A stretch of 64,000 bases of DNA, taken from the NCBI RefSeq assembly GCF_030814655.1, contig NZ_JAUSVK010000001.1, forward strand, positions 4,533,001-4,597,000. Direction: 5' to 3'. Positions 10,471 through 36,350 of the stretch are shown piece after piece. The translations under genes were made by a program, and so were the position numbers. The stretch comes from Labrys monachus (GTDB lineage Bacteria; Pseudomonadota; Alphaproteobacteria; Rhizobiales; Labraceae). Position 1 is the first letter of the stretch; each line of letters begins with the position of its first letter. The notes beneath the pieces are model-generated. The model worked only from the letters and a program-made list of their open reading frames with translations, was not told where the DNA came from and made no database searches.

Positions 10471-11376
10471 ATGAAGGTCATCGTCGTCGGCAATTGCACG
10501 GTGGACCTGTCCTTCGCCGTTCCGAGCCTGCCCCGCATCGGCGAGACCGTCCTCGCCGACGGGAAGACCGTCGATCTCGGCGGCAAGGGCGCCAACCAGG
10601 CCGTGGTCGCCTCGCGCTTCGGCGTCGAGAGCCTGCTGGCCGCCCCGATCGGCCTCGACCGCGACGGCGACTGGGCCTGCGAGCGCCTGGCGGCGGAGGG
10701 CCTGTCGCCGGCCGCGCTGCTGCGCGTCGAGGCACCCACCGACCAATCGGTGATCTGGGTCTCCGCCGACGGCGAGAACAGCATCGTCAGCACCCATGGG
10801 GCGGCGCGCGAGGCGAGCCCGGCCTGGGCCGAGGAGACCCTCCGGCGCCATGCCGCGCCCGGCGACATCCTGCTCATGCAGGGCAATCTCACGGTGGAGA
10901 CGACGCGGGCCGCCCTCGCCGCCGGCCGCCGGGCCGGCATGACGACGATGCTCAATCCCGCGCCGATCCAGCCCGGCTACGAGGCGCTGCTGCCGCTCGT
11001 CGACGTCGCCGTGCTCAACCGGATCGAGGCGACGGTCTTCGGCCGGCATGACGATCCGCTGGCGGGCGGCGCCTCGCTCCGGGCCGCCGGCGTGCCGCGC
11101 GTGATCGTGACGCTGGGCGCGGACGGCGCCGTGCTGATGGAGGAAGGCGGCGCCACGCGAGTGCCGGCGCCCCCCGTCGAGGCGATCGACGCCGTCGGGG
11201 CCGGCGATACCCTGTGCGGGGCGCTCGCCGCCGCGCTGACGCGGGGCGCCTCCTTCCGGGACGCGCTCGCCCTCGCCGTCGAGGCCGCCTCGCTCACCGT
11301 GACCCGCAAGGGCACGCAGACCTCCTTTCCAACCAGGGCCGAATGTGCGGCCCTCTGCGAGAAACATGCATGCTAG
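10471..11376 (+). CDS. PfkB-family (ribokinase-like) kinase
   Basis: A 301-residue cytoplasmic kinase of the ribokinase superfamily. It carries the N-terminal GGKGANQA signature (37-44) and the C-terminal anion-hole motif VGAGDT with catalytic base Asp246. The family phosphorylates a hydroxymethyl group on sugars, nucleosides or hydroxymethylpyrimidine (HMP). The ATG at 10471 is one base past the ATPase stop, and the stop (TAG at 11374-11376) lies inside the next gene. Position after a ribose-type importer suggests it traps the imported molecule; the TenA-type neighbour makes a pyrimidine or nucleoside substrate worth considering alongside ribose. Confidence 0.9.
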   Translation: MKVIVVGNCTVDLSFAVPSLPRIGETVLADGKTVDLGGKGANQAVVASRFGVESLLAAPIGLDRDGDWACERLAAEGLSPAALLRVEAPTDQSVIWVSADGENSIVSTHGAAREASPAWAEETLRRHAAPGDILLMQGNLTVETTRAALAAGRRAGMTTMLNPAPIQPGYEALLPLVDVAVLNRIEATVFGRHDDPLAGGASLRAAGVPRVIVTLGADGAVLMEEGGATRVPAPPVEAIDAVGAGDTLCGALAAALTRGASFRDALALAVEAASLTVTRKGTQTSFPTRAECAALCEKHAC

Positions 11377-12032
11377 AACAGCTTCTTTCCGATGAGATCC
11401 TGCAGGCGAACGCCGATGTCTGGGAGGCTATGCAGCATCACCGCTTCGTGGCGGACATCGAGGCGGACCGGCTCGATCCCGCCGTGTTTCGCCGCTACCT
11501 CGTCTATGAGAACGCCTTCGTCGAGACGGCGATCTCGATCTTCGGCCATCTCCTGGTCAAATCGCCGGGCCTCGCCGAGCAGCACAAGCTCATCCAGGTG
11601 CTGAAGGCCCTGTCCGAGGAACAGATCGCCTATTTCCGCGAGACCTTCGAAGCGCTCGGCATCCCCTATGCCGATCCGGCGACACTCGACCTGCCGATGC
11701 CGGTGCTGTCCTTCCAGCAGGGCATGCTCTCCTTCGCCGCCCATGGCGCCTATGTCGACGGCGTCGCGGCGATGTTCGCGGCGGAATGGATGTATTGGCA
11801 CTGGAGCCGGCGCGTCATCGCGCAGCCGATCTCGGAGCCGGTTCTGCGCCGCTGGGTCGCGCTCCACACCGACGAAGCCTTCGCCGCGCAGGCCCGATGG
11901 CTCAAGGACCAGCTCGATGCCGCCGGCCGCAGCCTCGACAAGGCGGCGCGCAAGCGCATTTCGAAGGTGTTCCGGAACGCCCTCAAATTCGAGATCGATT
12001 TCCACTCGGCGCCCTATTCGGCGGCGCCCTGA
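11370..12032 (+). CDS. TenA/PqqC-superfamily protein, TenA_E-like (no cysteine)
   Basis: A 220-residue all-helical TenA-family protein. TenA enzymes hydrolyse aminopyrimidine breakdown products of thiamin to recover HMP. The whole sequence has no cysteine, so the classical TenA_C nucleophile is absent. Glu139 (AAEWMYWHW) lies in the equivalent segment, and Glu208 (ALKFEIDFHSAPY) matches the C-terminal acidic residue of the family. This places it with the TenA_E type. The ATG at 11370 overlaps the kinase stop by 7 nt. Co-expression with an importer and a PfkB kinase supports salvage of a pyrimidine-like compound, by inference only. Confidence 0.8.
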   Translation: MLEQLLSDEILQANADVWEAMQHHRFVADIEADRLDPAVFRRYLVYENAFVETAISIFGHLLVKSPGLAEQHKLIQVLKALSEEQIAYFRETFEALGIPYADPATLDLPMPVLSFQQGMLSFAAHGAYVDGVAAMFAAEWMYWHWSRRVIAQPISEPVLRRWVALHTDEAFAAQARWLKDQLDAAGRSLDKAARKRISKVFRNALKFEIDFHSAPYSAAP

Positions 12033-12459: not shown

Positions 12460-12774
12460 TCAGGGGGCGGTCTCGACGCCTGTCTGAAGAAGAGCAGCGG
12501 CGATCGCCTCGCCCTCCTCCCCCGTCGTACCGGCCGGCATCTGCTTCTGCGCGCGGCCATACCAGTAGCGTGCGTTCGACAGGTCGCCCTCGACCCGGTG
12601 AAGCCAGGCATGCACCCAGGCGCTGTCCTGGTCGCTCCCGGCCTGGACGATCTCGTGCGCCGAGTCCCATTCCCCCCGCAGCCCATGCCAGATGGCGCGG
12701 AGCGGCGCCGTCATCGGCGCGGGCGGCTCCTCGAATCGCAGACTGGCGAGGAAATTTGCAGCGCGGTCCTTCAT
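12460..12774 (-). CDS. Conserved hypothetical protein, about 100 residues
   Basis: A 104-residue cytoplasmic protein without a signal peptide. The core APLRAIWHGLRGEWDSAHE, then WVHAWLHRVEGD and LSNARYWYGRAQ, looks TPR/SEL1-like: paired amphipathic helices rich in Trp, His and Tyr. I recognise the pattern from short alphaproteobacterial hypotheticals but know no function. The ATG at 12774 follows GGAGG at 5 nt, strong support that it is translated. It is monocistronic and convergent with the secreted-protein gene. Confidence 0.75.
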   Translation of the reverse strand: MKDRAANFLASLRFEEPPAPMTAPLRAIWHGLRGEWDSAHEIVQAGSDQDSAWVHAWLHRVEGDLSNARYWYGRAQKQMPAGTTGEEGEAIAAALLQTGVETAP

Positions 12775-13082: not shown

Positions 13083-13823
13083 ATGGTGCTCATCAATTGC
13101 GACATGGGCGAAAGCTTCGGCATCTGGCGCCTGGGCGACGATGCCGGCATCATGCCCTCCATCCATATCGCGAATGTGGCCTGCGGCTTCCACGGCTCCG
13201 ACTTCAATCACATGCGCACGACGGTCCGGCTGGCCAAGAGCCACGGTGTGCGGGTGGGCGCGCATCCCTCGCTTCCCGACCTCCAGGGCTTTGGCCGGCG
13301 CGAGATGAAGATCGGCCGCGAAGAGCTCGCCAATTGCCTGATCTACCAGATCGGCGCCCTCAAGGGCTTTCTCGACGCCGAGGGCATGACGCTCAACCAC
13401 ATCAAGCCGCATGGCTCGCTCTACGGCATGGCGGCGCGCCAGCCCGATATCGCCCATGCGATCTGCGATGCCGCCGACATCTTCAAGGTGCCGCTGATCG
13501 GCATGATCGACACGCTGCACGCCACCGTCTATCCCGAACGCGGCCACGCCTTCATTCCCGAATTCTACGCCGATCTCGATTATGCCGATGACGGCGCGCT
13601 GATCATCACCCGCGAGCATCCGCCCGTCGATCCCGACCTTGCCGCCCGGCGCTGCCTGCGCGCCATCCGCGAGGGGCTGGTCAGCTCGACCGGCGGCAGG
13701 GACATCCGCGTCCGGGCGGATACGATCTGCATCCATTCCGATACGCCGGGCGCTGACCAGGTGGCCAGAGTTTTGCATGAGACATTGCTAGCGGAAGGCA
13801 TATCATCCGCGCCCACGCATTGA
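13083..13823 (+). CDS. pxpA: LamB/YcsF family, 5-oxoprolinase subunit A-like
   Basis: A 246-residue TIM-barrel-like hydrolase. It opens with the family motif NCDMGESFG and continues with ANVACGFHGSD and GAHPSLPDLQGFGRREM. PxpA with PxpB and PxpC forms the widespread ATP-dependent bacterial 5-oxoprolinase. In this operon the B and C homologues are accompanied by biotin carboxylase and carrier, so the substrate may be carboxylated first. The ATG at 13083 follows AGGGAG at about 10 nt; an in-frame ATG at 13059 is the alternative. The next gene begins 32 bp after the stop. Confidence 0.88.
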   Translation: MVLINCDMGESFGIWRLGDDAGIMPSIHIANVACGFHGSDFNHMRTTVRLAKSHGVRVGAHPSLPDLQGFGRREMKIGREELANCLIYQIGALKGFLDAEGMTLNHIKPHGSLYGMAARQPDIAHAICDAADIFKVPLIGMIDTLHATVYPERGHAFIPEFYADLDYADDGALIITREHPPVDPDLAARRCLRAIREGLVSSTGGRDIRVRADTICIHSDTPGADQVARVLHETLLAEGISSAPTH

Positions 13824-13855
13824 AGCGACCGGCACCTCAACCGAAACAGGCAAAA

Positions 13856-14101
13856 ATGGCCATCAAGACCATCCAGGCTCCCCTTCCAGGAACCTTCTAC
13901 CGCTCTTCCGCCCCGGACAAGCCCCCCTTCAAGACCGAAGGGGACAAAGTGGCGGCCGGCGACACCATCGGCCTCATCGAGGTGATGAAGACCTTCTCCC
14001 CCGTGGTCGCCGAGGAAGCCGGCACCCTCGTCGCCTTCCATGTCGACAATGAGGATGCCGTCATGGCCGGCCAGCCGCTCTACGATCTCGACGAAGGCTG
14101 A
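13856..14101 (+). CDS. Biotin carboxyl carrier protein, stand-alone domain
   Basis: An 81-residue biotinyl domain with the attachment motif EVMK; Lys45 would be biotinylated by biotin ligase. It lacks the long Ala/Pro-rich linker of AccB (about 150 residues), so it is the bare swinging domain. The ATG at 13856 is preceded by a weak CAGG; an upstream TTG at 13820 overlapping the pxpA stop would add 12 residues. It sits 2 bp before the biotin carboxylase gene, matching a dedicated carrier for that enzyme rather than fatty-acid acetyl-CoA carboxylase. Confidence 0.9.
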   Translation: MAIKTIQAPLPGTFYRSSAPDKPPFKTEGDKVAAGDTIGLIEVMKTFSPVVAEEAGTLVAFHVDNEDAVMAGQPLYDLDEG

Positions 14102-14103
14102 CC

Positions 14104-15495
14104 ATGACGATCCGCAGGATCTTCGTCGCCAATCGCGGAGAGATCGCCGTCCGCATCATCAGGGCCGCCAGGGAATTGGGGATCGGCACCGTCCAGGCCT
14201 ACAGCGCGGCGGACCGGGACATGCTCGCCGTCCGCCTCGCCGACACCGCGGTGCCGGTCGGTCCGGCCCATGCCAAGAAATCCTACCTCAACAAGGACGC
14301 CATGCTGAAGGCGGCCATCGAGCATGGCTGCGACGCGGTGCATCCGGGCTACGGCTTCCTGTCGGAGAATGCGGACTTCGCCGGCATGGTCGAGGACGCG
14401 GGCCTCGTCTTCATCGGTCCGAAGGCGGAGACCATCCGCGCCATGGGCGACAAGGCGACCGCCCGCATCATGGCGGCCCGGGCCGGCGTACCGACGGTGC
14501 CGGGCAGCGAGGGCCGCATCGAGGACCCCGGCGAGGCCCTGCGCATCGCCGAATCCATCGGCTATCCCGTGATGATCAAGGCCTCGGCCGGCGGCGGCGG
14601 GCGCGGCATCCGCGTCGCCGCCTCGCCCGCCGATCTCGATCGGCTCATTCCCCAGGCGAGCGCCGAGGCGCTGGCCGCCTTCGGCGACGGCGGCCTCTAT
14701 CTCGAGCGCTTCGTGCCGCGCGCCCGCCATGTCGAGGTGCAGATCCTCGGCGACGGCGAGAACGTCATCCATGCCTATGAGCGCGAATGCTCGCTGCAGC
14801 GCCATCGCCAGAAGGTATGGGAGGAGGCGCCCGCCGCCTGCCTGTCCCCCGCCGTCCGCGAGGAGCTCTGCGCGTCGGCGGTGCGGCTGGCCAAATCCGT
14901 GTCCTATCGCGGCGCCGGCACGCTGGAATATCTCTACGACGCCGATCGCGGCGACTTCTTCTTCATCGAGATGAACACCCGCATCCAGGTCGAGCATCCG
15001 GTGTCGGAGATGATCACCGGCATCGATCTCGTCCGCGAGATGATCCGCGTGGCGGGCGGGGAGAAGCTGTCGCTCTCCCAGGATCAGGTCCGCCTCGGCG
15101 GCCACGCCATCGAGGTGCGCATCAACGCCGAGGACCCGGCGATGGGGTTCAGGCCGGCGCCGGGCACCATCTCCGCGCTCTCCGTGCCCGGCGGCATGGG
15201 CGTGCGCTTCGACACCATGCTCTATCAGGGCTACAGCGTGCCGCCCTTCTACGATTCCCTGCTCGGCAAGCTGATCGTCTGGGACACCGACCGCCCCGCC
15301 GCCCTCCGGCGCCTGGCGCGGGCGCTGGACGAATTGAAGGTCGAGGGCGTGCCGACCACGGCGGCGCTGCATCGCGCGCTCGCCGGCGATCCGCAGATCC
15401 AGGCCGGCGACGTGCATACCCGCTGGCTGGAAGGCTGGCTCGAAACAAATCCGCTGACGCCCGAACAGGGTTCCCCCCTGCCCCTCACTGCCTGA
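14104..15495 (+). CDS. Biotin carboxylase subunit
   Basis: A 463-residue ATP-grasp enzyme that carboxylates the biotin of its carrier using ATP and bicarbonate. Visible: HPGYGFLSEN (80-89), the glycine-rich ATP loop KASAGGGGRG (159-168), and EMNTRIQVEHP with Glu289 and the bicarbonate/biotin-site Arg293. Length matches single-domain AccC (about 450). Unlike housekeeping accBC, it is embedded between pxpA/BCCP and pxpB/pxpC. In urea carboxylase the same modules are one chain, which suggests the KipI/KipA-like pair is its carboxyltransferase. Confidence 0.93.
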   Translation: MTIRRIFVANRGEIAVRIIRAARELGIGTVQAYSAADRDMLAVRLADTAVPVGPAHAKKSYLNKDAMLKAAIEHGCDAVHPGYGFLSENADFAGMVEDAGLVFIGPKAETIRAMGDKATARIMAARAGVPTVPGSEGRIEDPGEALRIAESIGYPVMIKASAGGGGRGIRVAASPADLDRLIPQASAEALAAFGDGGLYLERFVPRARHVEVQILGDGENVIHAYERECSLQRHRQKVWEEAPAACLSPAVREELCASAVRLAKSVSYRGAGTLEYLYDADRGDFFFIEMNTRIQVEHPVSEMITGIDLVREMIRVAGGEKLSLSQDQVRLGGHAIEVRINAEDPAMGFRPAPGTISALSVPGGMGVRFDTMLYQGYSVPPFYDSLLGKLIVWDTDRPAALRRLARALDELKVEGVPTTAALHRALAGDPQIQAGDVHTRWLEGWLETNPLTPEQGSPLPLTA

Positions 15496-15510
15496 AGGAA
15501 AGCTCGATCG

Positions 15511-16377
15511 ATGCGGTATTCGTTCGGAGGCGACGAACATATCTTCGTCGAGGTCGACTCGGAGATGTCCCTCGAGGCCTTCTTCAAGAGCCTCTCGATG
15601 ACCAATGCGGTGCGTGAGAGCCGCATCAGGGGCGTGACGGAGATCTGTCCCGCCAACGCCTCCTTCCAGATCAAGTTCGACCCGGACGTGATCGCCCCCG
15701 ACGACATGATGCGGGAGATCCAGGCCCTGGAGGGCGCAGCCGATGCCGGCGACGGCCGGCTCAAGACCCGCATCGTCGAAATCCCCGTGTTCTACGGCGA
15801 TCCCTGGACCCACGAGACGCTGATGCGCTTTCGCGAGCGCCACCAGGATCCGAACGGGACCGACCTGGACTACGCCGCCCGCGTCAACGGCTATGGCGGA
15901 GCGCAGGCCTTCATCGCCGCCCATTCCGGCTCGCCCTGGTTCGTCTCGATGGTCGGCTTCGTCGCCGGCCTGCCCTTCATGTACCAGATGGTGGAGCGCG
16001 CAAAGCAGATCGAGGTGCCGAAATATCTGCGTCCGCGCACCGACACGCCGCGCCTCACCGTCGGCCATGGCGGCTGCTTCGGCTGCATCTATTCGGTGCG
16101 CGGGGCCGGCGGCTACCAGATGTTCGGCATCACGCCGATGCCGATCTACGATCCCCGCCAGGAGATCAGCTATCTCCGCGACTTCATGATCTTCTTCAAG
16201 CCGGGCGACATCGTGAAGTTCAAGCCGGTCGGCCGGGAGGAATACGACGCCGATGTCGAAGCCGTCGACACCGGGCGGTTCACACCGCTGATCCGGGAGG
16301 TGGATTTCTCCCTCGAAGCGTTCCAGGCCGATCCTGCCGCCACCAACGACCGGCTTTTGAAGGTGCTCCATGGCTGA
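15511..16377 (+). CDS. pxpB: 5-oxoprolinase subunit B-like (KipI/AHS1) carboxyltransferase-domain protein
   Basis: A 288-residue member of the carboxyltransferase domain subdomain C/D family, longer than classical KipI/PxpB (about 220-240). An N-terminal alpha/beta part with IVEIPVFYGDPWTHETL is followed by VGHGGCFGCIYSVRGAGGYQMFGITPMPIYDP-type glycine-rich core. It pairs with the downstream PxpC homologue to form the cyclophilin-like heterodimer that binds the acceptor. The ATG at 15511 is 15 bp after the biotin carboxylase stop with GGAA upstream, and its 3' end overlaps the next gene by 8 bp. This variant probably belongs to the biotin-linked branch of the family. Confidence 0.82.
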   Translation: MRYSFGGDEHIFVEVDSEMSLEAFFKSLSMTNAVRESRIRGVTEICPANASFQIKFDPDVIAPDDMMREIQALEGAADAGDGRLKTRIVEIPVFYGDPWTHETLMRFRERHQDPNGTDLDYAARVNGYGGAQAFIAAHSGSPWFVSMVGFVAGLPFMYQMVERAKQIEVPKYLRPRTDTPRLTVGHGGCFGCIYSVRGAGGYQMFGITPMPIYDPRQEISYLRDFMIFFKPGDIVKFKPVGREEYDADVEAVDTGRFTPLIREVDFSLEAFQADPAATNDRLLKVLHG

Positions 16378-17359
16378 GGGGAAGGCTGCCGTGCTCGAAA
16401 TCGTCAAACCGGGTCTCTCCACCACCGTGCAGGACCTCGGCCGCCCGGGCTATTACCATCTCGGCATTCCCTTGTCGGGCGCCATGGACCGCCAGGCCCT
16501 GATCGCAGCCAATCTGCTGGTCGGCAACGACAAGGGCGATGCGGCGCTCGAAGCCGTGTTCATGGGGCCGGAGATCCGCTTCCTGTCCGACGCCCTCGTC
16601 GCGGTGACGGGCGCCGAGCTGCCGCCCAAGGTCGATGGCATGGAGCAGCCGACCTGGACCTCCTTCCCGGTCAAGGCCGGACAGGTGCTGTCCTTCGGCT
16701 TTCTCAAGAGTGGCGCGCGCGCCTATATCGCCGTCGCCGGCGGCATCGACGTGCCTGTGGTGCTCGGCTCGCGCTCCACCTACACGCTGGGGGCGCTGGG
16801 CGGCCATGAAGGCCGGGCGCTGAAGGCCGGCGACCTGCTGCCGACGGGCCCCGCGCGGCCCGCCCCCGCCGGCCGCAGCGTTCCAGCCGATCTCCGCCGC
16901 ATGCCGGCCACGCCGGGCGTCCTGCGCGTGCTGCCGGGGCTCTACTGGCATCGCATCACCGAGGCGGCCGGGGTGCGCTTCTTCGAGGACAGCTGGAAGG
17001 TGGCGCCCGAAGCGGACCGGATCGGCTATCGCTTCCGCGGCGGCCGGCCGCTCGAATTCGTGCCGCGGGAGCAGCCTTTCGGAGCGGGATCCGATCCGTC
17101 CAACATCGTGGACAGCTGCTATCCCTATGGCTCGGTCCAGGTGCCCGGCGGCACCGAACCGATCGTGCTGCACCGGGATGCCGTCTCGGGCGGCGGCTAT
17201 TTCATGATCGGCACCGTGATCTCCGCCGACATGGACCTCATCGGCCAGCTGCAGCCGCACCAGACGGCCCGCTTCGAGGCGGTCGACATGGCCCAGGCCC
17301 TGGAAGCGCGGCGGCAGAGCGGCGAGCAGCTCAAAAAATTGGCGGAGATCCTGACGTGA
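16370..17359 (+). CDS. pxpC: 5-oxoprolinase subunit C-like (KipA/AHS2) protein
   Basis: A 329-residue biotin-dependent carboxyltransferase-domain protein with the family opening LEIVKPGLSTTVQDLGRPGY and the GVPLSGAMD-like segment GIPLSGAMDRQALIAANLLVGN. With PxpB it makes the acceptor-binding half of 5-oxoprolinase or of urea carboxylase. The ATG at 16370 overlaps the pxpB stop by 8 bp, so the two subunits are coupled and probably equimolar. It is the last gene of the five-gene set; a 191-bp gap follows, with no clear terminator seen. Confidence 0.9.
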   Translation: MAEGKAAVLEIVKPGLSTTVQDLGRPGYYHLGIPLSGAMDRQALIAANLLVGNDKGDAALEAVFMGPEIRFLSDALVAVTGAELPPKVDGMEQPTWTSFPVKAGQVLSFGFLKSGARAYIAVAGGIDVPVVLGSRSTYTLGALGGHEGRALKAGDLLPTGPARPAPAGRSVPADLRRMPATPGVLRVLPGLYWHRITEAAGVRFFEDSWKVAPEADRIGYRFRGGRPLEFVPREQPFGAGSDPSNIVDSCYPYGSVQVPGGTEPIVLHRDAVSGGGYFMIGTVISADMDLIGQLQPHQTARFEAVDMAQALEARRQSGEQLKKLAEILT

Positions 17360-19809: not shown

Positions 19810-21837
19810 TTGCAAAACCTGCGCGTAGCCGTGGATGTCGGCGGGACGTTCACCGACATCTGCATCATGGACGAGACCACCGGCCTGATCCGGATCGAGA
19901 AGACGGCGTCCTCCAAGGATCCGATCGACGGCATCATGGCCGGGGTCTCCAAGGCGGCGATCGACCTCGGCAAGGTGGCCCTGTTTTCCCACGGCACCAC
20001 GGTGGCGACCAATGCCCTGATCACGCGGCGGCTGCCGCGCACTGCCATGGTCTGCACCAAGGGCTTTCGCGACGTCATCGAGATCCGCCGCGCCAACAAG
20101 GAAGACCTGTGGGACACCTATAAGGACGTCGTCCGTCCCTATGTGCCGCGGCGGGACCGCCTGGTCGTCGAGGAACGCATCGATGCCCAGGGCGCCGTCG
20201 TCACGCCTCTCGACGAGGACGGAGCGCGCGCGGTCGCCCGCATCCTGAAGCGGCGCAACGTGGCGGCCGTCGCCGTCTGCTTCATGAACGCCTATATGAA
20301 CGGGGCCAATGAGCGCCGCATGAAGGCGATCCTCGAGGAGGAAATGCCGGACGTGCCGATCTCGATCTCCTCGGGCGTCCTGCCGGAGATCTTCGAGCAT
20401 GAGCGGTTCTCCACCACCGTGGTCAATGCGGCGCTGAGCCCGGTGGTGGTCGACTACACCACCCGCCTCGGCGAGCGGCTCAAGCAGGAGGGCTATACCC
20501 GCGATCTCCTCCTGCTGCACACCGGCGGCGGCGTGATGACGCCGAACAGCGTCAAGGATTTCGCCGCCCGCCTCGCCGGGTCCGGCATTGCGGCGGGCGC
20601 CATCGCCAGCCGCCACATCGCCATGCTCTGCGGCTTCCGCAATTCGATCGGCCTCGACATGGGCGGCACCTCCACCGACGTCTCGCTGGCCTATGACGGA
20701 CAGTCGCGCGTCACCAAGGACTGGTATATCGAGTTCGGCTATCCCATCCGCTTCTCCTCGATCGAAGTGCTCACCATCGGCGCAGGCGGCGGCTCGCTGG
20801 CCTGGACCGACGAGGCCGGCTCGCTGCGCAACGGCCCCCAGTCGGCGGGCGCCCATCCGGGGCCGGCCTGCTACGGCAACGGCAACCGGCAGGCGACCAA
20901 CACCGACGCCAATGTCGTGCTCGGCCGGCTCGGCACGAGCCTGGCCGGCGGCAAGATCATGCTCGATCCCGTCCTCGCGGCCGAATCGGTGGACGAGAGC
21001 GTCGCCAAGCCGTTCGGGCTGACGCGGGAAGCCGCCGCGGATGCCATCATCCGCGTCGCCAACGCCAACATGTCGGACGCGGTGCGGCTGATCTCGATCA
21101 GCCGCGGCTACGACCCCCGGGATTTCGCACTGGTCGCCTTCGGCGGCGCCGGCGCCCTGCACGGCGTGGCGATCGCGAGGGACCTCGCCATTCCCGCCGT
21201 GATCGTGCCGCCCAATCCGGGCGTCACCTCGGCGCTGGGCTGCCTGCTCGTCGACGTGCAGCACGATTTCTCGGAAAGCTACATCGCCAGCGCCCACGAT
21301 GCCGATCCGGCCGCGATGGAGGCTGAATTCGGCCGCCTGGAAAAGGACGCCCTCGAACGCCTCGCCCATGAGGGCATCGCGCCCGCCGACATCGTGCTGC
21401 AGCGCACCATCGACATGATGTACCAAGGCCAGTGGCGCTCGCTCGCGGTGCCGGCCCCCGCCCCGATCGGTGCCATGGCCGACCTGATCGAGGCCTTCCA
21501 CCGCCAGCACGAGCGCGAATATAATTTCCGCCGCGACGAGGCCCCGGTCGGACTGTTCCGCCTCAATCTCAAGGCGATCGGCGTGGTGCCGAAAGCCGAG
21601 CTCGCGGTGCACCAGCCGACCGGCGTCATCCCGCTGCCGACGAGCCGGCGTCCGGTCTGGTTCGACGCCGGCGCGGCCGTCGACACCCCCGTCTATGAGC
21701 GCTCCGACCTTCCGGCCGGCTTCAGCCTGGCCGGCCCGGCCGTGGTCGAGCAGGTCGATTCCACCGTCGTCATCCCGCCGGGAACGACGGCCGAAGTCGA
21801 CAAATACCTCAACATCATCATCCGCGTGAAGGATTGA
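19810..21837 (+). CDS. hyuA: Hydantoinase/oxoprolinase HyuA-type subunit (copy 1)
   Basis: A 675-residue ATP-dependent subunit of the hydantoinase A/oxoprolinase family. These phosphorylate a carbonyl or enol oxygen to drive ring opening or carboxylation. Actin-like phosphate motifs are visible: VDVGGTFTD (8-16), SHGTTVATNAL, LDMGGTSTDVSL and IGAGGGSLAW, plus GPACYGNG. The start is a TTG at 19810 with AGGAG eight bases before it; no in-frame ATG with a site lies closer. HyuB follows after 5 bp. Substrate could be a hydantoin, 5-oxoproline, lactam or ketone (acetone/acetophenone carboxylase relatives); sequence alone does not choose. Confidence 0.92.
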   Translation: MQNLRVAVDVGGTFTDICIMDETTGLIRIEKTASSKDPIDGIMAGVSKAAIDLGKVALFSHGTTVATNALITRRLPRTAMVCTKGFRDVIEIRRANKEDLWDTYKDVVRPYVPRRDRLVVEERIDAQGAVVTPLDEDGARAVARILKRRNVAAVAVCFMNAYMNGANERRMKAILEEEMPDVPISISSGVLPEIFEHERFSTTVVNAALSPVVVDYTTRLGERLKQEGYTRDLLLLHTGGGVMTPNSVKDFAARLAGSGIAAGAIASRHIAMLCGFRNSIGLDMGGTSTDVSLAYDGQSRVTKDWYIEFGYPIRFSSIEVLTIGAGGGSLAWTDEAGSLRNGPQSAGAHPGPACYGNGNRQATNTDANVVLGRLGTSLAGGKIMLDPVLAAESVDESVAKPFGLTREAAADAIIRVANANMSDAVRLISISRGYDPRDFALVAFGGAGALHGVAIARDLAIPAVIVPPNPGVTSALGCLLVDVQHDFSESYIASAHDADPAAMEAEFGRLEKDALERLAHEGIAPADIVLQRTIDMMYQGQWRSLAVPAPAPIGAMADLIEAFHRQHEREYNFRRDEAPVGLFRLNLKAIGVVPKAELAVHQPTGVIPLPTSRRPVWFDAGAAVDTPVYERSDLPAGFSLAGPAVVEQVDSTVVIPPGTTAEVDKYLNIIIRVKD

Positions 21838-21842
21838 CCCCG

Positions 21843-23843
21843 ATGGTCGCCAAACCCTCCCTCGATCCCGTCACCTTCGAGGTCCTGAAGAACTCCTTCA
21901 TCACCAGCGTCGACCAGATGGGCGAGCAGATCCTGCGCACCTGCTATTCCTTCGTCATCTACAACCGCGACTTCTCCAGCGCCCTGCACGATGCCGACGG
22001 CAATTCGGCGGCCCAGGGCAACCAGGACATCGCGGTGCATGTCGGCACGCTGCATTTCACCTGCAAGGACGTGATGCGCGCCTTCGAAGGCGACATGCAT
22101 CCCGGCGACGTCTACGCCATCAACGATCCCTATGCCGGCGGCACGCATTTCTCGGATGTGCGCCTGATCCGTCCGATCTTCTCCGACGGCAGGATCATCG
22201 CCTTCAGCCAGTCCAACGGCCATTGGTCGGATGTCGGCGGCAGCGTGCCCGGCTCCTTCGACGTGTCGGCGCGCGACATGTTCAAGGAGGGGCTGCGCAT
22301 CACCCCGGTGCGCCTCTTCGACAAGGGGCGCTTCTGCAAGGACGTCGCGCATCTCATCGCCTCGAACACCCGCGATCCCGCCTCCATCATCGGCGACATC
22401 CATGCCCAGGCCCAGGCCACGCTGGTGTGCGAACGGGAGATCCTGCGCCTCGTCGGCAAATATGGCCGCGAGACCGTACAGACCGGCCTGGCGGAGGTGC
22501 AGGACTATGTCGAGCGCGCCATGCGCCAGCGCATCGCCGCCTTGCCGGACGGGGAGTGGGAGACACAGGACTTCATCGACCGCGATCCCGCCGGCAAGGA
22601 GGGCCTGATCCCGATCAAGGTCAAGCTCACCATCAAGGGCGACAAGGTGATCTACGACTTCACCGGCAGCCATCCGACCATCGGCTCGATCTACAACTCC
22701 GCCTTCGGCGCCACCTTCTCGGCGGTCGCCGCGGGCATGAAGACCTTCTTCCCCGATCTGCCGCTCAACAGCGGCTTCTACCGCGTCTTCGAGATCATCG
22801 CGCCGGAAGGCAGCATCGTCGATGCCAAATGGCCGGTCGCCGTCACGGGTTTTCTCATGCCGTTCGAGAAGATCATGAATGCGATCTACGAGATCTGGTC
22901 GAAGATCCTGCCCCACCGCGCCATCGCCTGCGCCTTCAACCTCGAATATCTGCTCACCGGCGGGCTGGACGCCAGGCGCCCGGAAAAGCCGATCTTCATG
23001 TTCTATGACTGGCTTCCCGGCGGCTGGGGCGGACGCAACGGCAAGGATGGCTGCAACGTCACCACGGCCTGCTTCGGCACCGGCCTGATGGCCCAGCCCG
23101 TCGAAGGCCAGGAGCGGGCCAATCCCATCCTGACCACCGAATTCGAGATCCTCACCGACTCGGCCGGTCCCGGCAAATGGCGCGGCGGCGCCGGCGTGCG
23201 CAAGACGTCGCTGATGCTCGAGGCCGAGAAGACGGTGATCTCCTATATCTGCGACCGCGAGCGGGCCGTGGTCTGGGGCATCGAAGGCGGCCTGCCCTCA
23301 ATCCCGCACGGCCTTACCCTGCATCGGGCCGGCCGCGACAAGCCGGATTGGCTGGGCGCGACCTTCTCGGACGTGCCGCTCGGCGAGGGGGACATCTTCA
23401 GCCGTCCGACCGCCGGCGGCGGCGGCTTCGGCGATCCGCTCGAACGCGATCCGGCGCTGGTGCTGGAAGACGTCATCGACGGCTATGTCTCGGTCGGGCG
23501 GGCCGCCATGGATTACGGCGTCGTGATCCGGCCGATCGATCCCGACATCTGCGAATACGAGATCGACGAAGCGGCGACCCGGGCCGAACGCGAATCGATC
23601 GCCCGCCAGCGCAGCGGCTGGCTGGCCACCGACCCGGAGGAGGTCGCGGCGGCCTATCGCGCCGGCTCGATCGACAGGCTCGACGTGGTGCGCCGCTACG
23701 CCGTCGTGCTGGACTGGGACGACGGCACCCTGCTGCCGACCTCGACCGCCCAGTTCCGCGAGATGTTCCACAAGCGCTCGGCCGCCAAATGGCGCCCCAG
23801 CGAGGCCGCCGGCGAGGCCCCGCTGCCGTCCGCGGCGTCATGA
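21843..23843 (+). CDS. hyuB: Hydantoinase HyuB-type subunit (copy 1), extended C-terminus
   Basis: A 666-residue hydantoinase B/oxoprolinase catalytic partner. Family motifs: NRDFSSALHDADGN, NDPYAGGTHFSDV, QSNGHWSDVGG (His/Asp metal or substrate site) and GGGGFGDP near the usual end. About 130 residues follow GGGGFGDP, including RRYAVVLDWDDGTLLPTST, longer than in copy 2 (562 residues). Such tails occur in carboxylase-like members. The ATG at 21843 follows GAAGGA. It forms a heteromer with the adjacent HyuA; a strong hairpin follows 31 bp downstream. Confidence 0.92.
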   Translation: MVAKPSLDPVTFEVLKNSFITSVDQMGEQILRTCYSFVIYNRDFSSALHDADGNSAAQGNQDIAVHVGTLHFTCKDVMRAFEGDMHPGDVYAINDPYAGGTHFSDVRLIRPIFSDGRIIAFSQSNGHWSDVGGSVPGSFDVSARDMFKEGLRITPVRLFDKGRFCKDVAHLIASNTRDPASIIGDIHAQAQATLVCEREILRLVGKYGRETVQTGLAEVQDYVERAMRQRIAALPDGEWETQDFIDRDPAGKEGLIPIKVKLTIKGDKVIYDFTGSHPTIGSIYNSAFGATFSAVAAGMKTFFPDLPLNSGFYRVFEIIAPEGSIVDAKWPVAVTGFLMPFEKIMNAIYEIWSKILPHRAIACAFNLEYLLTGGLDARRPEKPIFMFYDWLPGGWGGRNGKDGCNVTTACFGTGLMAQPVEGQERANPILTTEFEILTDSAGPGKWRGGAGVRKTSLMLEAEKTVISYICDRERAVVWGIEGGLPSIPHGLTLHRAGRDKPDWLGATFSDVPLGEGDIFSRPTAGGGGFGDPLERDPALVLEDVIDGYVSVGRAAMDYGVVIRPIDPDICEYEIDEAATRAERESIARQRSGWLATDPEEVAAAYRAGSIDRLDVVRRYAVVLDWDDGTLLPTSTAQFREMFHKRSAAKWRPSEAAGEAPLPSAAS

Positions 23844-29068: not shown

Positions 29069-30145
29069 ATGCGGAACTTCATCGCCCGCCATCAAGCGCC
29101 GTTCCTGCTGATGGTCCTCCTCGGCCTGATCGCCGGGGCCACCTTCCTCTCCGCCAATGACAGCCTGAGCGTGACGCTGACGGAGATGTTCATCCGCGTC
29201 ATCGTCGTCGTCGGCCTCTATGTCTTCATCGGCAATTCCGGCATCATCTCCTTCGGCCAGATCGGGTTCATGTGCATCGGCGCCTATGCCGCGGCCTGGG
29301 CGACGGCGGACCCATCCTTCAAGCAGATCATGCTGTCGGGCCTGCCGACATTCCTGCAGGACAATCAATATCCCTTCCTCGTCGCCATCGCCGGATCGCT
29401 GGTGCTGCCGGCCGTGGCCGCCCTCTGCCTGGGCGCGGCCATCATGCGCCTGTCCGGGACGGCCGCCTCGATCGCGACCTTCGCCTTCCTCATCATCGTC
29501 AACAGCGTCTATTCGAACTGGGATTCGGTGACGGCGGGGGTCAGCTCGATCATCGGCATTCCCACCGTGGTCGGGCCGTGGACCGCCTATGCGTTCGCCG
29601 CCCTGGCGATCCTCCTCGCCTACCTGTTCCAGATCTCGCGCTTCGGGCTGATGCTGCGGGCCTCGCGGGACGATGAGGTCGCGGCCCGGGCCTCGGCGGT
29701 GAAGATCCTGCGCATGCGCCTCGCCGCCTTCGTGCTGAGCGCCGCGCTGGTCGGCGTCGGCGGCGGGCTCTACGCCCAGTTCCTCGGCATCCTCACGGTC
29801 GATCCCTTCTATCTCGACCTCTCCTTCATCACCATCGCCATGCTGGTGGTCGGCGGCATGTTCAGCCTCACCGGCGCGGTGACCGGCGTCGTCGCGGTGA
29901 CCGCGGTCGTCGAGTTCCTGCGCTTTCTCGAACGCGGCGTGACGATCGGCGGCAGCACGCTGGCGCTGCCGCAGGGCAGCCAGGAAATCGGCCTCGGCAT
30001 CGTCATGGCCCTCATCCTGATCTTTCGGCCGACCGGGCTCAGCCGCGGCCGCGAGATCGCCATCGTCACGGCCGGTGTGCCCAAGGGCGCATCGGCGCCC
30101 GACACCCCGGCGCTTTCCGCCGAACCCCAGAGAGCGGCGAGGTGA
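29069..30145 (+). CDS. Liv-type ABC transporter permease, LivM-like (1)
   Basis: A 358-residue permease. It carries the LivM signature FIGNSGIISFGQIGFMCIGAYAAAWA and, near the end, VGGMFSLTGAVTGVV followed by RPTGLSRGREI. The ATG at 29069 follows GAGGGAGCACCGACA. The C-terminal 30 residues are hydrophilic and Ala/Pro-rich. The stop lies in a GTGA overlap with a possible GTG of the next gene, so the importer and the aminotransferase are co-expressed. Confidence 0.92.
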   Translation: MRNFIARHQAPFLLMVLLGLIAGATFLSANDSLSVTLTEMFIRVIVVVGLYVFIGNSGIISFGQIGFMCIGAYAAAWATADPSFKQIMLSGLPTFLQDNQYPFLVAIAGSLVLPAVAALCLGAAIMRLSGTAASIATFAFLIIVNSVYSNWDSVTAGVSSIIGIPTVVGPWTAYAFAALAILLAYLFQISRFGLMLRASRDDEVAARASAVKILRMRLAAFVLSAALVGVGGGLYAQFLGILTVDPFYLDLSFITIAMLVVGGMFSLTGAVTGVVAVTAVVEFLRFLERGVTIGGSTLALPQGSQEIGLGIVMALILIFRPTGLSRGREIAIVTAGVPKGASAPDTPALSAEPQRAAR

Positions 30146-30150
30146 CGGCC

Positions 30151-31089
30151 ATGACGACGCCAACCCCCTCTCCCTATGCCGCCGGGGCGGCCTATATAGA
30201 CGGGCGCTACATGCCGGTCTCGCAAGCCGCGATACCGATCACCGACTGGGGCTATCGCCGCTCCGACGTGACCTATGACGTGGTCAGCGTCTGGCAGGGC
30301 AATTTCTTCCGGCTCGACGATCACATCGCCCGCTTCCGGGCGTCGATGAACGCCTTTCGCTTCCAGCCGCGGGAAAGCGACGAGGAGATCAAGGCGATCC
30401 TGCATCGCTGCGTGGCCCTGGCGGGCCTGCGCGACGCCTATATCGCCATGGATTGCCTGCGCGGACGCCCGCCGGCCGGCGTGCCCTATCATCCGGCCTA
30501 TGCGCGCAACTACATCACCGCCTTCGCCGTGCCGTGGATCTCGCTGCTCAACCCCGAGGTGATGGCGCGCGGCGCCCATCTCGTCGTGGCCGAGGCCGTG
30601 CGCATTCCCGCCCGATCCGTCGATCCCACCGCCAAGAACTTCCACTGGGCCGATCTGACGCGCGGCCAGTTCGAGGCGCATGACCGCGGCGCCGATTTCT
30701 GCGTGCTGCTGGCGGAGGACGGCACCGTCACCGAGGGGCCGGGCTTCAACATCTTCGTCGTCTCGGACGGCCGGATCGCCACGCCGTCGAGCGGCGTCCT
30801 CGAAGGCATCACCCGCCGCTCCGTCATCGAGCTATGCGGCCATCTCGGCCTGCCGATCGAGGTGCGGCCCGTGTCCGTCGACGAATTGCGCGATGCCGAC
30901 GAGATCTTCCTGTCGACGACGGCGGGCGGCGTCATGCCGGCCTCGCGCATCGACGGACGCATCATGGGCAATGACCGGCCCGGCCCGATCTCGAGCCGGG
31001 TGCAGGACGCCTTCTGGTCGCGTCGCGCCGAGGGGTGGCACGCCACGCCGGTCGACTATGCCGCGGCCGAAACAGCGACATCATCCTGA
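30151..31089 (+). CDS. Class IV aminotransferase (branched-chain / D-amino acid type)
   Basis: A 312-residue fold-type IV PLP enzyme. Catalytic Lys162 sits in DPTAKNFHWADL, Glu195 in TEGPGFNIFVV contacts the pyridine nitrogen, and EGITRRSVIEL and STTAGGVMP form the phosphate and substrate region. It transfers an amino group between an amino acid (branched-chain L or D form) and a keto acid in the cytoplasm. The ATG at 30151 has GGCGAGG at about 8 nt; the GTG at 30142 overlaps the livM stop. Located between importer and HyuA/HyuB pair 2, it may deaminate the ring-opened product. Confidence 0.9.
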   Translation: MTTPTPSPYAAGAAYIDGRYMPVSQAAIPITDWGYRRSDVTYDVVSVWQGNFFRLDDHIARFRASMNAFRFQPRESDEEIKAILHRCVALAGLRDAYIAMDCLRGRPPAGVPYHPAYARNYITAFAVPWISLLNPEVMARGAHLVVAEAVRIPARSVDPTAKNFHWADLTRGQFEAHDRGADFCVLLAEDGTVTEGPGFNIFVVSDGRIATPSSGVLEGITRRSVIELCGHLGLPIEVRPVSVDELRDADEIFLSTTAGGVMPASRIDGRIMGNDRPGPISSRVQDAFWSRRAEGWHATPVDYAAAETATSS

Positions 31090-31138
31090 ACCCGAGGGCC
31101 TCGCGGCCCCGCACAACAAACTGCAAGAGGAACCGGCC

Positions 31139-33157
<2,019 letters not shown>

Positions 33158-33179
33158 CCCGCCCGAAGGAGTTCTTGAG

Positions 33180-34868
33180 ATGGATATGGTTTCCCTGAAC
33201 ATCGTCGGCGGCATCCTGGTCTCGATCTGCCGGGACATGGGCGTGACGCTGATGCGCACCTCCTATTCGACGATCTTTTCCGAATCGCTCGACTTCACCT
33301 GCGGTCTCGCCCTGCCGACGGGCGAGCTGGTGGCGACCGGCGATTTCTGCCCGTCGATGATCGGCGGCATGCCGCTGCTGCTGCGCTCCTGCGTGCAGGA
33401 GATCGCGCTGGAGGACCTGGAGGAAGGCGACGTCATCCTCCACAACGATCCCTATCGCGGCGGACTGCACACCCCCGAGCATACCTTCTTCAAGCCGGTC
33501 TTCGTCGACGGCACGCTCATCGGCTTCGCGGTCGCCATCGGCCATGTCTGCGAAGTGGGCGGCATGGCGCCGGCGGGCTTCGCCGGCGAGGCGACGGAGG
33601 TGTTCCACGAAGGGCTGCGGGTGCCGCCGGTGAAGATCAAGCGCGCCGGCAAGGATGTCGACGACATCTGGCGGCTGCTGTTGGCGAACGTTCGCACACC
33701 GCGTTACAATTACGGCGATTTCCGCGCGCTGATCGCCTCGATCGACCTCGGCGAGCGGCGCATGGCCGACCTCGCCCGCAAGCACGGCGTCGAATCTTTC
33801 CGCGAGAACGTCATGGCGCTGATGGACTATTCGGAACGTCGCATGCGGGCGGAGATCGAGAAGATCCCGGACGGGCGCTACCGTTTCGAAGACTGCATGG
33901 AAGACGACGGCATCGAGGACAAGGTCTACACCATCCGCGCCGAAGTGACGGTGTCGGGCAGCGACCTCATCGTCGACTATCACGGCTCCTCGCCCCAGGC
34001 CAAGGGACCCATCAACGGCACGCTCGGCGTGGCGCACGGCGCCGCCTACAATGCCGTCCTGCAGCTCACCGATTCCACCATTCCGAAGAATTCGGGCTGC
34101 TTCCGGCCGATCCGGGTCCTCGCGGAGCCGGGATCGGTGGTCAACGTCAACTTTCCCGGCCCCTCGGTGGGCGGCAACACCGAGACGCATTGCCGTATCG
34201 CCAATGTGGTGATGGGAGCGCTCGCCCCCGGCCTGAAGGAGCGCTCCGCCGCCACCGACGGCGCCAGCCACAGCAATTTCCTCTTCGGCGGCACCGACAA
34301 CCAGACCGGCGAGTTCTTCTGCTGCTACGACCTCACCCCCGTGGGCTGGGGCGGGCGCAGCTTCGCCGACGGCAACGACGCGGTCGGCGGCATCAACGGC
34401 AATTGCCCGCACATCCCGGTCGAGGTGTTCGAATATCGCTTCCCCTGGCATGTCGAGGAATTCAAGCTCGTCGACGGCTCGGGCGGCCCCGGCACCTTCC
34501 GGGGCGGCCTCTCTCTCTCCAAGACCGTGCGCTGCACCGATACCGAGATGACGTTCAGCTATATGAGCGACCGCCAGAAGGTCAGCCCGTGGGGCATCCA
34601 CGGCGGCCATGAGGGCGGACGCGCCGAGCTCTTCATGAAGCGCAACGGTAGCGACGACTGGCTGACGATCACCCAGGCCTTCAACAAGGTCTCGCCGAGC
34701 AAATTCGCCAATGTCCCGATCAAGCCCGGCGACAGGATCAAGATCTCGTCGCCGGCCGGCGGCGGCTGGGGCCCCCCGGAAGAGCGGGATCCGGCGCTGG
34801 TGAAGGAAGACCTGCTCGACGGTTTCATCACGCCCGAACAGGCGCGGACGGTCTACGCCGCCCGCTGA
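33180..34868 (+). CDS. hyuB: Hydantoinase HyuB-type subunit (copy 2)
   Basis: A 562-residue HyuB homologue of the usual length. It shows family segments GVTLMRTSYSTIFSES, HNDPYRGGLHTPEHTF, AIGHVCEVGGMAP (His and acidic metal/substrate residues), NFLFGGTDNQTGEF and the terminal SPAGGGWGPPEERDP. It works with the preceding HyuA in ATP-driven opening or carboxylation of a cyclic amide or ketone. The ATG at 33180 follows AAGGAG at 8 nt. A terminator-like hairpin lies 8 bp past the stop. Confidence 0.92.
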   Translation: MDMVSLNIVGGILVSICRDMGVTLMRTSYSTIFSESLDFTCGLALPTGELVATGDFCPSMIGGMPLLLRSCVQEIALEDLEEGDVILHNDPYRGGLHTPEHTFFKPVFVDGTLIGFAVAIGHVCEVGGMAPAGFAGEATEVFHEGLRVPPVKIKRAGKDVDDIWRLLLANVRTPRYNYGDFRALIASIDLGERRMADLARKHGVESFRENVMALMDYSERRMRAEIEKIPDGRYRFEDCMEDDGIEDKVYTIRAEVTVSGSDLIVDYHGSSPQAKGPINGTLGVAHGAAYNAVLQLTDSTIPKNSGCFRPIRVLAEPGSVVNVNFPGPSVGGNTETHCRIANVVMGALAPGLKERSAATDGASHSNFLFGGTDNQTGEFFCCYDLTPVGWGGRSFADGNDAVGGINGNCPHIPVEVFEYRFPWHVEEFKLVDGSGGPGTFRGGLSLSKTVRCTDTEMTFSYMSDRQKVSPWGIHGGHEGGRAELFMKRNGSDDWLTITQAFNKVSPSKFANVPIKPGDRIKISSPAGGGWGPPEERDPALVKEDLLDGFITPEQARTVYAAR

Positions 34869-34876
34869 ACCGCACC

Positions 34877-34897
34877 GCCGGGCGCTTTACGCCCGGC
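34877..34897 (+). terminator. Hairpin after hyuB copy 2
   Basis: GCCGGGCG (34877-34884), loop CTTTA, CGCCCGGC (34890-34897): a perfect 8-bp GC stem 8 nt after the stop codon, followed by CCCTCCCCGTT. Without a T-run it is either a weak or Rho-assisted end or a processing element ahead of the aminotransferase gene. Confidence 0.5.
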
Positions 34898-34964
34898 CCC
34901 TCCCCGTTCGACGGCCGATGTCTCCGACGCCGGCCGTCCATCCGTTTTCAGGAAAGCTCCTCCG

Positions 34965-36350
34965 ATGACCGTTCTGCCCAATTCGCTGCATGCGCGCGAC
35001 ATCGCCTATCAGATCCATCCCTATACCAATATGCGCCGGCATGAGCGCAACGGCCCGATCGTGATCGAGCGGGGGTCGGGCATCCATGTCTATGACGACC
35101 AGGGGCGCGAATATATCGAGGGGCTGGCCGGGCTGTGGAGCGTCGCCGTCGGCTTCGGCGAGAGCCGGCTGGTGGAAGCGGCGGCGCGGCAGATGGCCAA
35201 GCTTCCCTACTACCATACCTTCACGCATAAATCGAACGAGCCCTCGATCGAGCTCGCCGAGAAGCTGGCGACGATGACGCCGGACGGGCTCGACCATGTC
35301 TTCTTCACCAATTCGGGCTCGGAAGCCAACGACACCGTCGTCAAGCTCGCCTGGTACTACAACAACGCCCTCGGCCGGCCGGAGAAGAAGAAGTTCATCG
35401 CCCGCAACGGCGGCTATCACGGCATCACCATCGCCTCGGGCAGTCTGACCGGCCTGCAGGTGAACCAGCGCGGCTTCGACCTGCCGCTGCCCTTCGTCAA
35501 GCATGTGACCTGCCCGCATCATTACCGCTTCGCCGAGGCGGGCGAGAGCGAGGAGGCCTTCGCCGACCGCCTCGCCGCCGAGCTGGAGGCCACCATCCTC
35601 GCCGAGGGCCCGGAGACGGTGGCCGCCTTCATCGGCGAGCCGCTGATGGGCGCCGGCGGCGTGCTGGTGCCGCCGCGCACCTATTGGGAGAAGGTCCAGG
35701 CCGTCTGCCGCCGCCACGACGTGCTGGTGGTGGCGGACGAGGTCATCAACGGCTTCGGGCGCCTCGGCACTTTGTTCGCCTGCGAGCATTTCGGCATCCA
35801 GCCGGACATGCTGGTGGTGTCCAAGCAGATCACCTCCTCCTACCAGCCGCTGGCCGCCGTCGTCGTCAGCGACGCCATCTACCAGGCCATCGCCGACCAG
35901 AGCGAGCGGCTCGGCACCTTCGGCCACGGCTTCACCGCCAGCGGCCATCCGGTGGCGACCGCCGTCGGCCTCGAAAACCTCGCCATCATCGAGGAACGCG
36001 GCCTGGTGGCGAATGCCGCCAAGGTCGGTGCCCATCTGCAGGCCCGCCTGCGCGCCTTCGCCGACCATCCGCTCGTCGGCGAAGTGCGCGGCGTCGGCCT
36101 CATCGCCGCGGTCGAACTGGTGGCCGACAAGGCCAGCAAGGCCAAGTTCGATCCCCCCGGCAAGGTCGGCTTCCGCTTCTTCGAGAAGGCGCATGAGCAT
36201 GGCCTCATCATCCGCGCCATCCAGGATTCGATCGCCTTCTGCCCGCCCCTCATCATCACCGAAGCCCAGGTCGACGAGATGATCGACCGCTTCGCCCGCA
36301 CCCTCGAGGATATCCAGGCCTGGATCGCCGCAGGCATGCCTGCCGTCTGA
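34965..36350 (+). CDS. Class III (omega-type) aminotransferase
   Basis: A 461-residue fold-type I PLP aminotransferase of the class III group that uses omega-amino acids or amines with pyruvate or 2-oxoglutarate. PLP contacts are visible in NSGSEANDT, NGGYHG, VVADEVINGFGRLG and Lys287 (VVSKQITSSYQPL). The ATG at 34965 follows AGGAAAGC. An opened lactam such as one from pyrrolidone or caprolactam would give an omega-amino acid, so this enzyme fits as the next step after HyuA/HyuB pair 2. That substrate chain is inference. Confidence 0.92.
   Translation: MTVLPNSLHARDIAYQIHPYTNMRRHERNGPIVIERGSGIHVYDDQGREYIEGLAGLWSVAVGFGESRLVEAAARQMAKLPYYHTFTHKSNEPSIELAEKLATMTPDGLDHVFFTNSGSEANDTVVKLAWYYNNALGRPEKKKFIARNGGYHGITIASGSLTGLQVNQRGFDLPLPFVKHVTCPHHYRFAEAGESEEAFADRLAAELEATILAEGPETVAAFIGEPLMGAGGVLVPPRTYWEKVQAVCRRHDVLVVADEVINGFGRLGTLFACEHFGIQPDMLVVSKQITSSYQPLAAVVVSDAIYQAIADQSERLGTFGHGFTASGHPVATAVGLENLAIIEERGLVANAAKVGAHLQARLRAFADHPLVGEVRGVGLIAAVELVADKASKAKFDPPGKVGFRFFEKAHEHGLIIRAIQDSIAFCPPLIITEAQVDEMIDRFARTLEDIQAWIAAGMPAV

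Follow-up and report, generated by a model that had tools for sequence, protein, structure and literature searches.

A conserved five-gene set of Labrys monachus that combines PxpA with separate urea-carboxylase-like components

We analysed a stretch of 64,000 nucleotides from Labrys monachus (contig NZ_JAUSVK010000001.1, positions 4,533,001 to 4,597,000; hereafter the window), in which five genes lie head to tail on the + strand at 13083–17359: pxpA, a lone biotin carrier, a biotin carboxylase (BC), a long pxpB and pxpC (Table 1). This order, given in a preliminary description of the DNA, is confirmed by the open reading frames (ORFs) and by their Pfam domains, with all five products passing the Pfam cut-offs (LamB_YcsF, Biotin_lipoyl, Biotin_carb_N/CPSase_L_D2/Biotin_carb_C, CT_C_D and CT_A_B). 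A carboxyltransferase component, CT_A_B and CT_C_D above their Pfam cut-offs, is present at the same locus. pxpA and the carrier overlap by 4 bases if the latter begins at its TTG start, PxpB and PxpC overlap by 8, and gaps of 2 and 15 bases separate the carrier from BC and BC from PxpB, respectively.

Table 1. Coordinates of the five-gene set and of its HyuA/HyuB neighbours in the window.
Feature	Position	Strand	Remarks
pxpA-like (LamB/YcsF) hydrolase subunit	13083–13823	+	246 aa; in-frame ATG also at 13059, a possible start
Lone biotin carrier	13856–14101	+	81 aa from ATG
Alternative carrier start, TTG	13820–14101	+	93 aa
Predicted biotinyl-lysine codon, carrier Lys45 (IEVMKTF)	13988–13990	+	Lys conserved in 102/102 carriers
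Biotin carboxylase (BC)	14104–15495	+	463 aa, without its own carrier domain
Long PxpB, predicted carboxyltransferase subunit C/D, urea-carboxylase kind	15511–16377	+	288 aa
PxpB Lys171 codon	16021–16023	+	aligned to general-base Lys1605 of K. lactis urea amidolyase
PxpC, predicted carboxyltransferase subunit A/B	16370–17359	+	329 aa
HyuA/HyuB genes (hydantoinase/oxoprolinase family)	19810–23843	+	recurrent companion, outside the proposed enzyme

The carrier matches PF00364 and scores 117 bits under NF005457 (cut-off 87), and BC scores 756 bits under NF009471 (cut-off 686). Both of these NCBIfam models bear the label 'acetyl-CoA carboxylase'; the cut-offs of the acetyl-CoA carboxylase equivalog models are missed (66.8 versus 115.2 for TIGR00531 and 608 versus 626.5 for TIGR00514). 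A biotinylatable Met-Lys motif is found in every one of the 102 carriers from long-PxpB loci, and the lysine named earlier as the biotin site, Lys45 of the 81-residue form, is kept throughout. Ten BC positions, taken as catalytic after the E. coli enzyme, are conserved in 103/103 full-length rows (100 from long-PxpB loci and 3 urea carboxylases), five rows shorter than 400 residues having been dropped beforehand. Biotinylation of the carrier and its association with the other chains in a complex are predicted. Under the urea carboxylase model TIGR02712 (cut-off 1303.85), BC scores 511, PxpC 238, PxpB 95 and the carrier 23 bits.

PxpA matches PF03746 with 280 bits and exceeds the cut-off of the subfamily model NF003814 (257.8 versus 226), while falling below the cut-offs of the four other listed PxpA models. 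Its residues D7, E10, H37, D40, H61, H106, K108, H110, H218 and D220 are identical in the three classical PxpA proteins used for comparison, and Ser219 is replaced by Gly in all three; one 120-residue PxpA was dropped from the alignment.

The carboxyltransferase chains point towards urea carboxylase. PxpB, a match to PF02682, scores higher under TIGR02712 than under the PxpB model TIGR00370 (70.5 bits, cut-off 145.55), both scores being below the respective cut-offs. PxpC scores 302 bits under PF02626 and 273 versus a cut-off of 230 under TIGR00724, and reaches 214.2 of the 500 bits set by the 5-oxoprolinase model NF045499. In the preliminary description, a phylogeny of PxpB and PxpC against urea carboxylase and 5-oxoprolinase was proposed as a check, and in our trees both proteins group with urea carboxylase, apart from the classical rows, with support of 100 and 95; the trees are quick searches with several long classical branches, supported by the Shimodaira–Hasegawa-like approximate likelihood ratio test (SH-aLRT) alone. 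In the PxpB tree (84 rows), the 37 long rows (of 108) and 15 urea carboxylase rows (of 16) are split from all 32 classical rows at SH-aLRT 100, and a single clade (100) unites 34 of the long rows. Two long rows, from genomes G206 and G396, stand apart from that clade, and a Thermomicrobium row groups with urea carboxylase (95). The PxpC tree (83 rows: 37, 15 and 31) joins the long and urea carboxylase rows at 95 and places the Thermomicrobium, G206 and G396 rows with urea carboxylase at 98. Three rows that were scored as long by exclusion (L087, L137 and L138) are placed by the trees together with urea carboxylase or close to it.

In an alignment of the three classes (its numbering equals that of the window PxpB plus 4; L185, a fragment with Arg, was excluded), the position of Lys171 of the window PxpB is Lys in 108/108 long PxpB and 16/16 urea carboxylases and Arg in 32/32 classical PxpB. 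The corresponding K1605 is the general base of Kluyveromyces lactis urea amidolyase, and the K1605A substitution lowers kcat to 0.095 of wild type, according to the available text of PMC5770610. Long PxpB and urea carboxylase, unlike classical PxpB, have in common Lys171-Tyr172, Tyr202, an insert near 95–115 and a C-terminal extension. With most classical PxpB, the long proteins have in common Phe150, which is Asp in urea carboxylase, and His138, which there is mostly Val. Such a hybrid, a urea-carboxylase lysine with classical-type F150 and H138, would fit a lactam substrate. An AlphaFold2 model of PxpB has a mean predicted local distance difference test score (pLDDT) of 65.9 and low confidence at 169–228, which includes Lys171, and was therefore used for the overall fold only. 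Its best structural match is 3va7, the K. lactis urea carboxylase (Z 17.6, root-mean-square deviation 3.0, 254 residues aligned); Mycobacterium smegmatis 3mml_B gives Z 12.6 over 187 aligned residues. By sequence, then, PxpB and PxpC are of the urea-carboxylase kind. The trees, the general-base lysine, the modest-confidence match to 3va7 and the composition of the locus all speak for this side of the earlier reading, a split urea carboxylase combined with PxpA, which as a whole is partly supported.

At least 584 relatives of the window PxpB were found in a scan of genome contigs, of which the best 80 loci were fetched, a choice biased to near relatives. The complete five-gene set is present in 76 of these 80 loci, the remaining four being short contigs of 3.3–8 kb; order and strand are as in the window in 71 loci, and pxpA is reversed in five. 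pxpA itself occurs in 77 of the 80, the other three being short contigs. With 76 of 80 loci complete, the grouping of the five genes exceeds chance. Of 397 Pseudomonadota genomes taken in a single draw, 21 (~5%) have long PxpB (E ≤ 1e-30); carrier matches scoring ≥95 bits occur in 18 genomes, all of them among these 21. In 17 of the 18, no more than 2.4 kb separates the carrier from PxpB; in the last, G170, contig ends separate the carrier and the start of BC from the rest of the set. The 95-bit limit was picked post hoc (the next lower match has 92.8 bits, and NF005457 is above its cut-off in 59 of the 397 genomes) and was used because the weaker matches lie in ORFs as large as AccB. Beyond Pseudomonadota, the order carrier-PxpB-PxpC-PxpA-BioY occurs on a Thermomicrobium plasmid that carries accC at a distance of ~8 kb; on a plasmid of the haloarchaeon Natribaculum, PxpB, PxpC and a carrier are close together, with a BC homologue and a pxpA at other places of the plasmid.

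The L. monachus genome contains three PF02682 genes and three pxpA genes. Besides the window set, there is a pxpABC of the Arg type at 4.006 Mb and, at 0.18–0.20 Mb, a second set of the Lys type. BC above the NF009471 cut-off is confined to the two Lys-type sets, and three further full-length BC elsewhere in the genome lie below it. The genome has four PF01039 matches, none of them closer than 314 kb to the window cluster; the BC and carrier of the window are thus without an acyl-CoA carboxyltransferase partner at this locus. Because the host has its own Arg-type pxpABC, 5-oxoproline is disfavoured as the substrate of the window set, being probably served already by another host enzyme.

Compared with urea carboxylase (TIGR02712; the K. 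lactis enzyme, PDB entries 3va7 and 5i8i), the set has the same BC, biotin carrier and CT_A_B/CT_C_D carboxyltransferase, its PxpB and PxpC lie on the same side of their trees, and PxpB has the general-base lysine, the Lys-Tyr and Gly-Gly-Tyr motifs and the C-terminal extension. Unlike urea carboxylase, it consists of four separate chains rather than one, each far below the whole-protein cut-off of TIGR02712, it includes PxpA, and its PxpB carries Phe150 and His138. The pxpA, pxpB, pxpC trio and a PxpA above the NF003814 cut-off are shared with the PxpABC 5-oxoprolinase (Niehaus 2017, as cited in the available text of PMC13274462 and PMC13390462), from which the set differs in the carrier and BC inserted between pxpA and pxpB, in Lys171 in place of the classical Arg, and in PxpB and PxpC scores below the cut-offs of the 5-oxoprolinase models.

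The gene set, its conserved catalytic residues, the kinship of PxpB/PxpC with urea carboxylase and the linkage across genomes lead us to favour, at somewhat better than even confidence, a single ATP- and biotin-dependent enzyme encoded by the five genes, which would N-carboxylate a lactam-like substrate whose ring PxpA would then open. Its mechanism builds on the established chemistry of biotin carboxylases and urea carboxylase. BC would use ATP and bicarbonate to form carboxylated biotin on carrier Lys45, and long PxpB and PxpC, as a carboxyltransferase of the urea-carboxylase type, would pass the carboxyl group to the amide nitrogen of a lactam-like substrate (a cyclic amide or ureide), with Lys171 of PxpB as a candidate base during the transfer. 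PxpA would hydrolyse the activated N-carboxy ring, and the resulting carbamate would lose CO2 to leave the amino acid, bicarbonate serving as an activator with no net consumption. N-carboxylation followed by hydrolysis would be chemically sensible by analogy; the N-carboxylation, the lactam nature of the substrate and the decarboxylation are steps that we infer.

Several observations weigh against this reading. Genomes G198 and G290 keep a trio of pxpA, long PxpB and PxpC, with Lys171 in both, and across their whole genomes have no BC or carrier above the cut-offs of these families, which indicates that at least one lineage can do without dedicated biotin subunits. The two genomes offer a natural test of whether AccB and AccC could serve in trans. 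In G396, BC and a 72-residue carrier-like ORF lie beside long PxpB/PxpC, and no pxpA was found in the 18 kb fetched. Biotin genes are also not restricted to the long proteins. We counted neighbours within 6 kb of PxpB at 68 dereplicated long and 32 Arg-type loci, with kinship ignored in the statistics. BC was found at 65/68 long loci versus 8/32 Arg-type loci, so that Lys versus Arg alone fails to separate biotin-linked from other sets. By the same counts, two kinds of enzyme that could hint at lactam metabolism are not significantly enriched: molybdenum hydroxylase (3/68 versus 0/32, p 0.55) and GABA (γ-aminobutyrate) transaminase matches (3/68 versus 2/32, p 0.65). Strict coupling of the lysine to biotin is further opposed by MSMEG_0435-MSMEG_0436 of M. 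smegmatis, an Arg-type PxpB/PxpC pair (Arg at the position aligned to Lys171) that, by the title of PDB entry 9yx5, is bound to a long-chain acyl-CoA carboxylase complex.

Five of the eight Arg-type loci with BC (L187–L191) have the order pxpA-PxpB-PxpC-BC and form their own clade (SH-aLRT 99 and 100). In four of them, PxpB and PxpC are fused by an open frame, and in four an EAMKM motif lies near the end of the BC frame (584–585 residues in three, 833 in one); at the other three of the eight, BC likewise lies no further than 6 kb away. In 9yx5, as far as the entry describes it, the PxpB/PxpC pair contacts a complex whose members include a BC-carrier subunit (AccA3), a likeness to the window set; unlike the window set, its PxpB is of classical length and Arg type, and AccA3 is shared, in place of a dedicated lone carrier and BC. 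The Arg-type BC loci and 9yx5 indicate that the biotin linkage is wider than the Lys-type clade and that the lysine is no clean marker; a rule by which Lys would mean biotin and Arg no biotin was dropped on the 8/32 count. The earlier statement that classical PxpABC uses no biotin was too general in view of these eight loci, the carrier genes beside some of them, and 9yx5.

Three other readings have to be set against a biotin-driven lactam-opening enzyme. The set may be a biotin-dependent carboxylase of an open-chain urea, guanidine or ureide, with PxpA cleaving the carboxylated linear product much as allophanate hydrolase does. Such a substrate would agree with the side of the trees on which PxpB/PxpC fall, with their lysine and with the frequency of HyuA/HyuB, of the hydantoinase family, among the neighbours. 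We nevertheless regard it as unlikely: PxpA keeps the Asp, Glu, His and Lys residues that are conserved in its classical counterparts, F150 and H138 of long PxpB resemble classical PxpB and not urea carboxylase, and no allophanate hydrolase or urea-carboxylase-associated protein was found among the 17 window proteins scanned, a subset of the window ORFs. That PxpABC is an ordinary biotin-free lactamase of the 5-oxoprolinase type, with BC and the carrier serving another carboxylase such as acetyl-CoA carboxylase, is what the NCBIfam names of these two proteins would suggest, and the trios of G198 and G290 would be accounted for in the same way. Several findings make it improbable, namely the urea-carboxylase kind of PxpB, the carrier tracking long PxpB across the 397 genomes, the absence of a PF01039 carboxyltransferase within 314 kb and the three further full-length BC of the host.

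The last is a carboxylase that retains its product, placing CO2 on a carbon or nitrogen of the substrate while PxpA acts elsewhere or is structural. Since pxpA is missing from only three of the 80 best loci, all of them short contigs, and keeps its conserved residues, we regard this reading as very improbable, even though pxpA lies on the opposite strand in five of those loci and no pxpA lies near BC, PxpB, PxpC and the carrier-like ORF of G396.

For the favoured enzyme, one that would carboxylate and then open a lactam, the surroundings give weak hints of a substrate. Within 6 kb, long loci differ from Arg-type loci in LysR (50/68 versus 2/32), HyuA (18/68 versus 0/32, p 0.00055), a TorT-type binding protein (13/68 versus 0/32, p 0.008) and the biotin importer BioY (8/68 versus 0/32, Fisher p 0.052). 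In the group to which the window cluster belongs, together with Methylobacterium aquaticum, the set is followed by an AraC-like regulator, HyuA, HyuB, GntR and a branched-chain-type importer; the regulators and importer of the window were assigned by eye and by similarity. Importers of the broad class represented upstream of pxpA in the window recur at other loci, and the permease of this upstream importer clusters with TorT-type permeases. Weak hints of an omega-amino-acid lactam come from the adjacent HyuA/HyuB, from an omega-type aminotransferase located 17.6 kb downstream, from an aldehyde dehydrogenase that lies 11 kb upstream and on the opposite strand, and, in some other copies, from GABA transaminase with succinate-semialdehyde dehydrogenase or from molybdenum hydroxylase. 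The pairing of GABA transaminase with succinate-semialdehyde dehydrogenase (L089, L091 and L126) had suggested 2-pyrrolidone as the substrate, a candidate reduced to a hint by the transaminase counts given above. Molybdenum hydroxylase of the xanthine dehydrogenase kind occurs in nine fetched long-PxpB loci, including Thermomicrobium, with a partial gene only in L125. In eight loci (L051, L054, L065, L074, L083, L087, L128 and L129) it is near the cluster, and in several of these its genes share their strand with a TorT-type importer and with BioY.

Downstream of the branched-chain-type importer, 30142–36350 holds a class IV aminotransferase, a second HyuA/HyuB pair and a class III aminotransferase, and resembles a catabolic island for lactams or hydantoins. 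The upstream genes of the window were excluded from the set, with PfkB matches in 1/80 loci, a PF04199 cyclase in 1/80 and a TenA-like protein in 0/80. The upstream importer was also excluded: its binding protein is only ~25% identical to the TorT type, and a minus-strand ORF (12460–12774, called by codon bias alone) intervenes between the binding protein gene and pxpA. At 11358–12032, a TenA/PqqC-family protein, below the curated cut-offs of thiaminase models, has as neighbours a PfkB gene of ribokinase-like type and an ABC transporter of the sugar type. Further downstream, at 37755–45030, ORFs resemble by eye subunits of a membrane complex of the hydrogenase-4/formate-hydrogenlyase type.

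In the second Lys-type set of the host (contig positions 182447–197000), a soluble diiron monooxygenase (two PF02332 subunits, a Rieske protein and others) is inserted between pxpA and carrier-BC-PxpB-PxpC, and a TorT-type importer and a 4-oxalocrotonate-tautomerase-like gene follow PxpC. The insertion, absent from the other loci longer than 9 kb that were searched, suggests ring oxidation prior to opening. Near this set (L142:7881–10108) are two tandem 359-residue ORFs with the same sequence start, their starts 1148 bases apart, which by eye are perhaps transposase copies.

PA0492–PA0496 of Pseudomonas aeruginosa are probably the same system as the window set; we take PA0492 to be LamB/YcsF and PA0495-PA0496 to be PxpB/PxpC. 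In the available text of PMC6249292 and PMC5521831, whose data on these genes concern transcription only, PA0493–PA0496 are an operon, PA0493 is a 'probable biotin-requiring enzyme' and PA0494 a 'probable acyl-CoA carboxylase subunit' with 55% identity to AccC; PMC6249292 states their functions as unknown and treats them as AccB/AccC-like. For separate genes resembling the two halves of the urea-carboxylase carboxyltransferase, the available text of PMC3199775 reports no functional data as of 2011. Our literature search, with most subscription papers outside its coverage, found no functional study of the cluster. The set represents no new superfamily, being an unusual combination within a known one and a widespread, apparently uncharacterised variant, for which the database names 'acetyl-CoA carboxylase' and '5-oxoprolinase' appear misleading.

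Beyond L. monachus, it is possible, at somewhat less than an even chance, that such sets form a widespread class in which biotin-driven placement of CO2 on a ring nitrogen would activate a lactam for opening, with CO2 returned and bicarbonate acting as a catalyst. This class would pair carboxyl transfer as in urea carboxylase with a hydrolase and a substrate side like those of 5-oxoprolinase; split sets of this sort may be the origin of the fused urea carboxylase. If the proposed activity is correct, many annotations as 'acetyl-CoA carboxylase' and '5-oxoprolinase' would be wrong, affecting most genomes with long PxpB, and a further kind of substrate for biotin-dependent carboxylases would be yet to be found. 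The PxpA/B/C family would then comprise both biotin-free and biotin-driven opening of cyclic amides, directly comparable within one genome.

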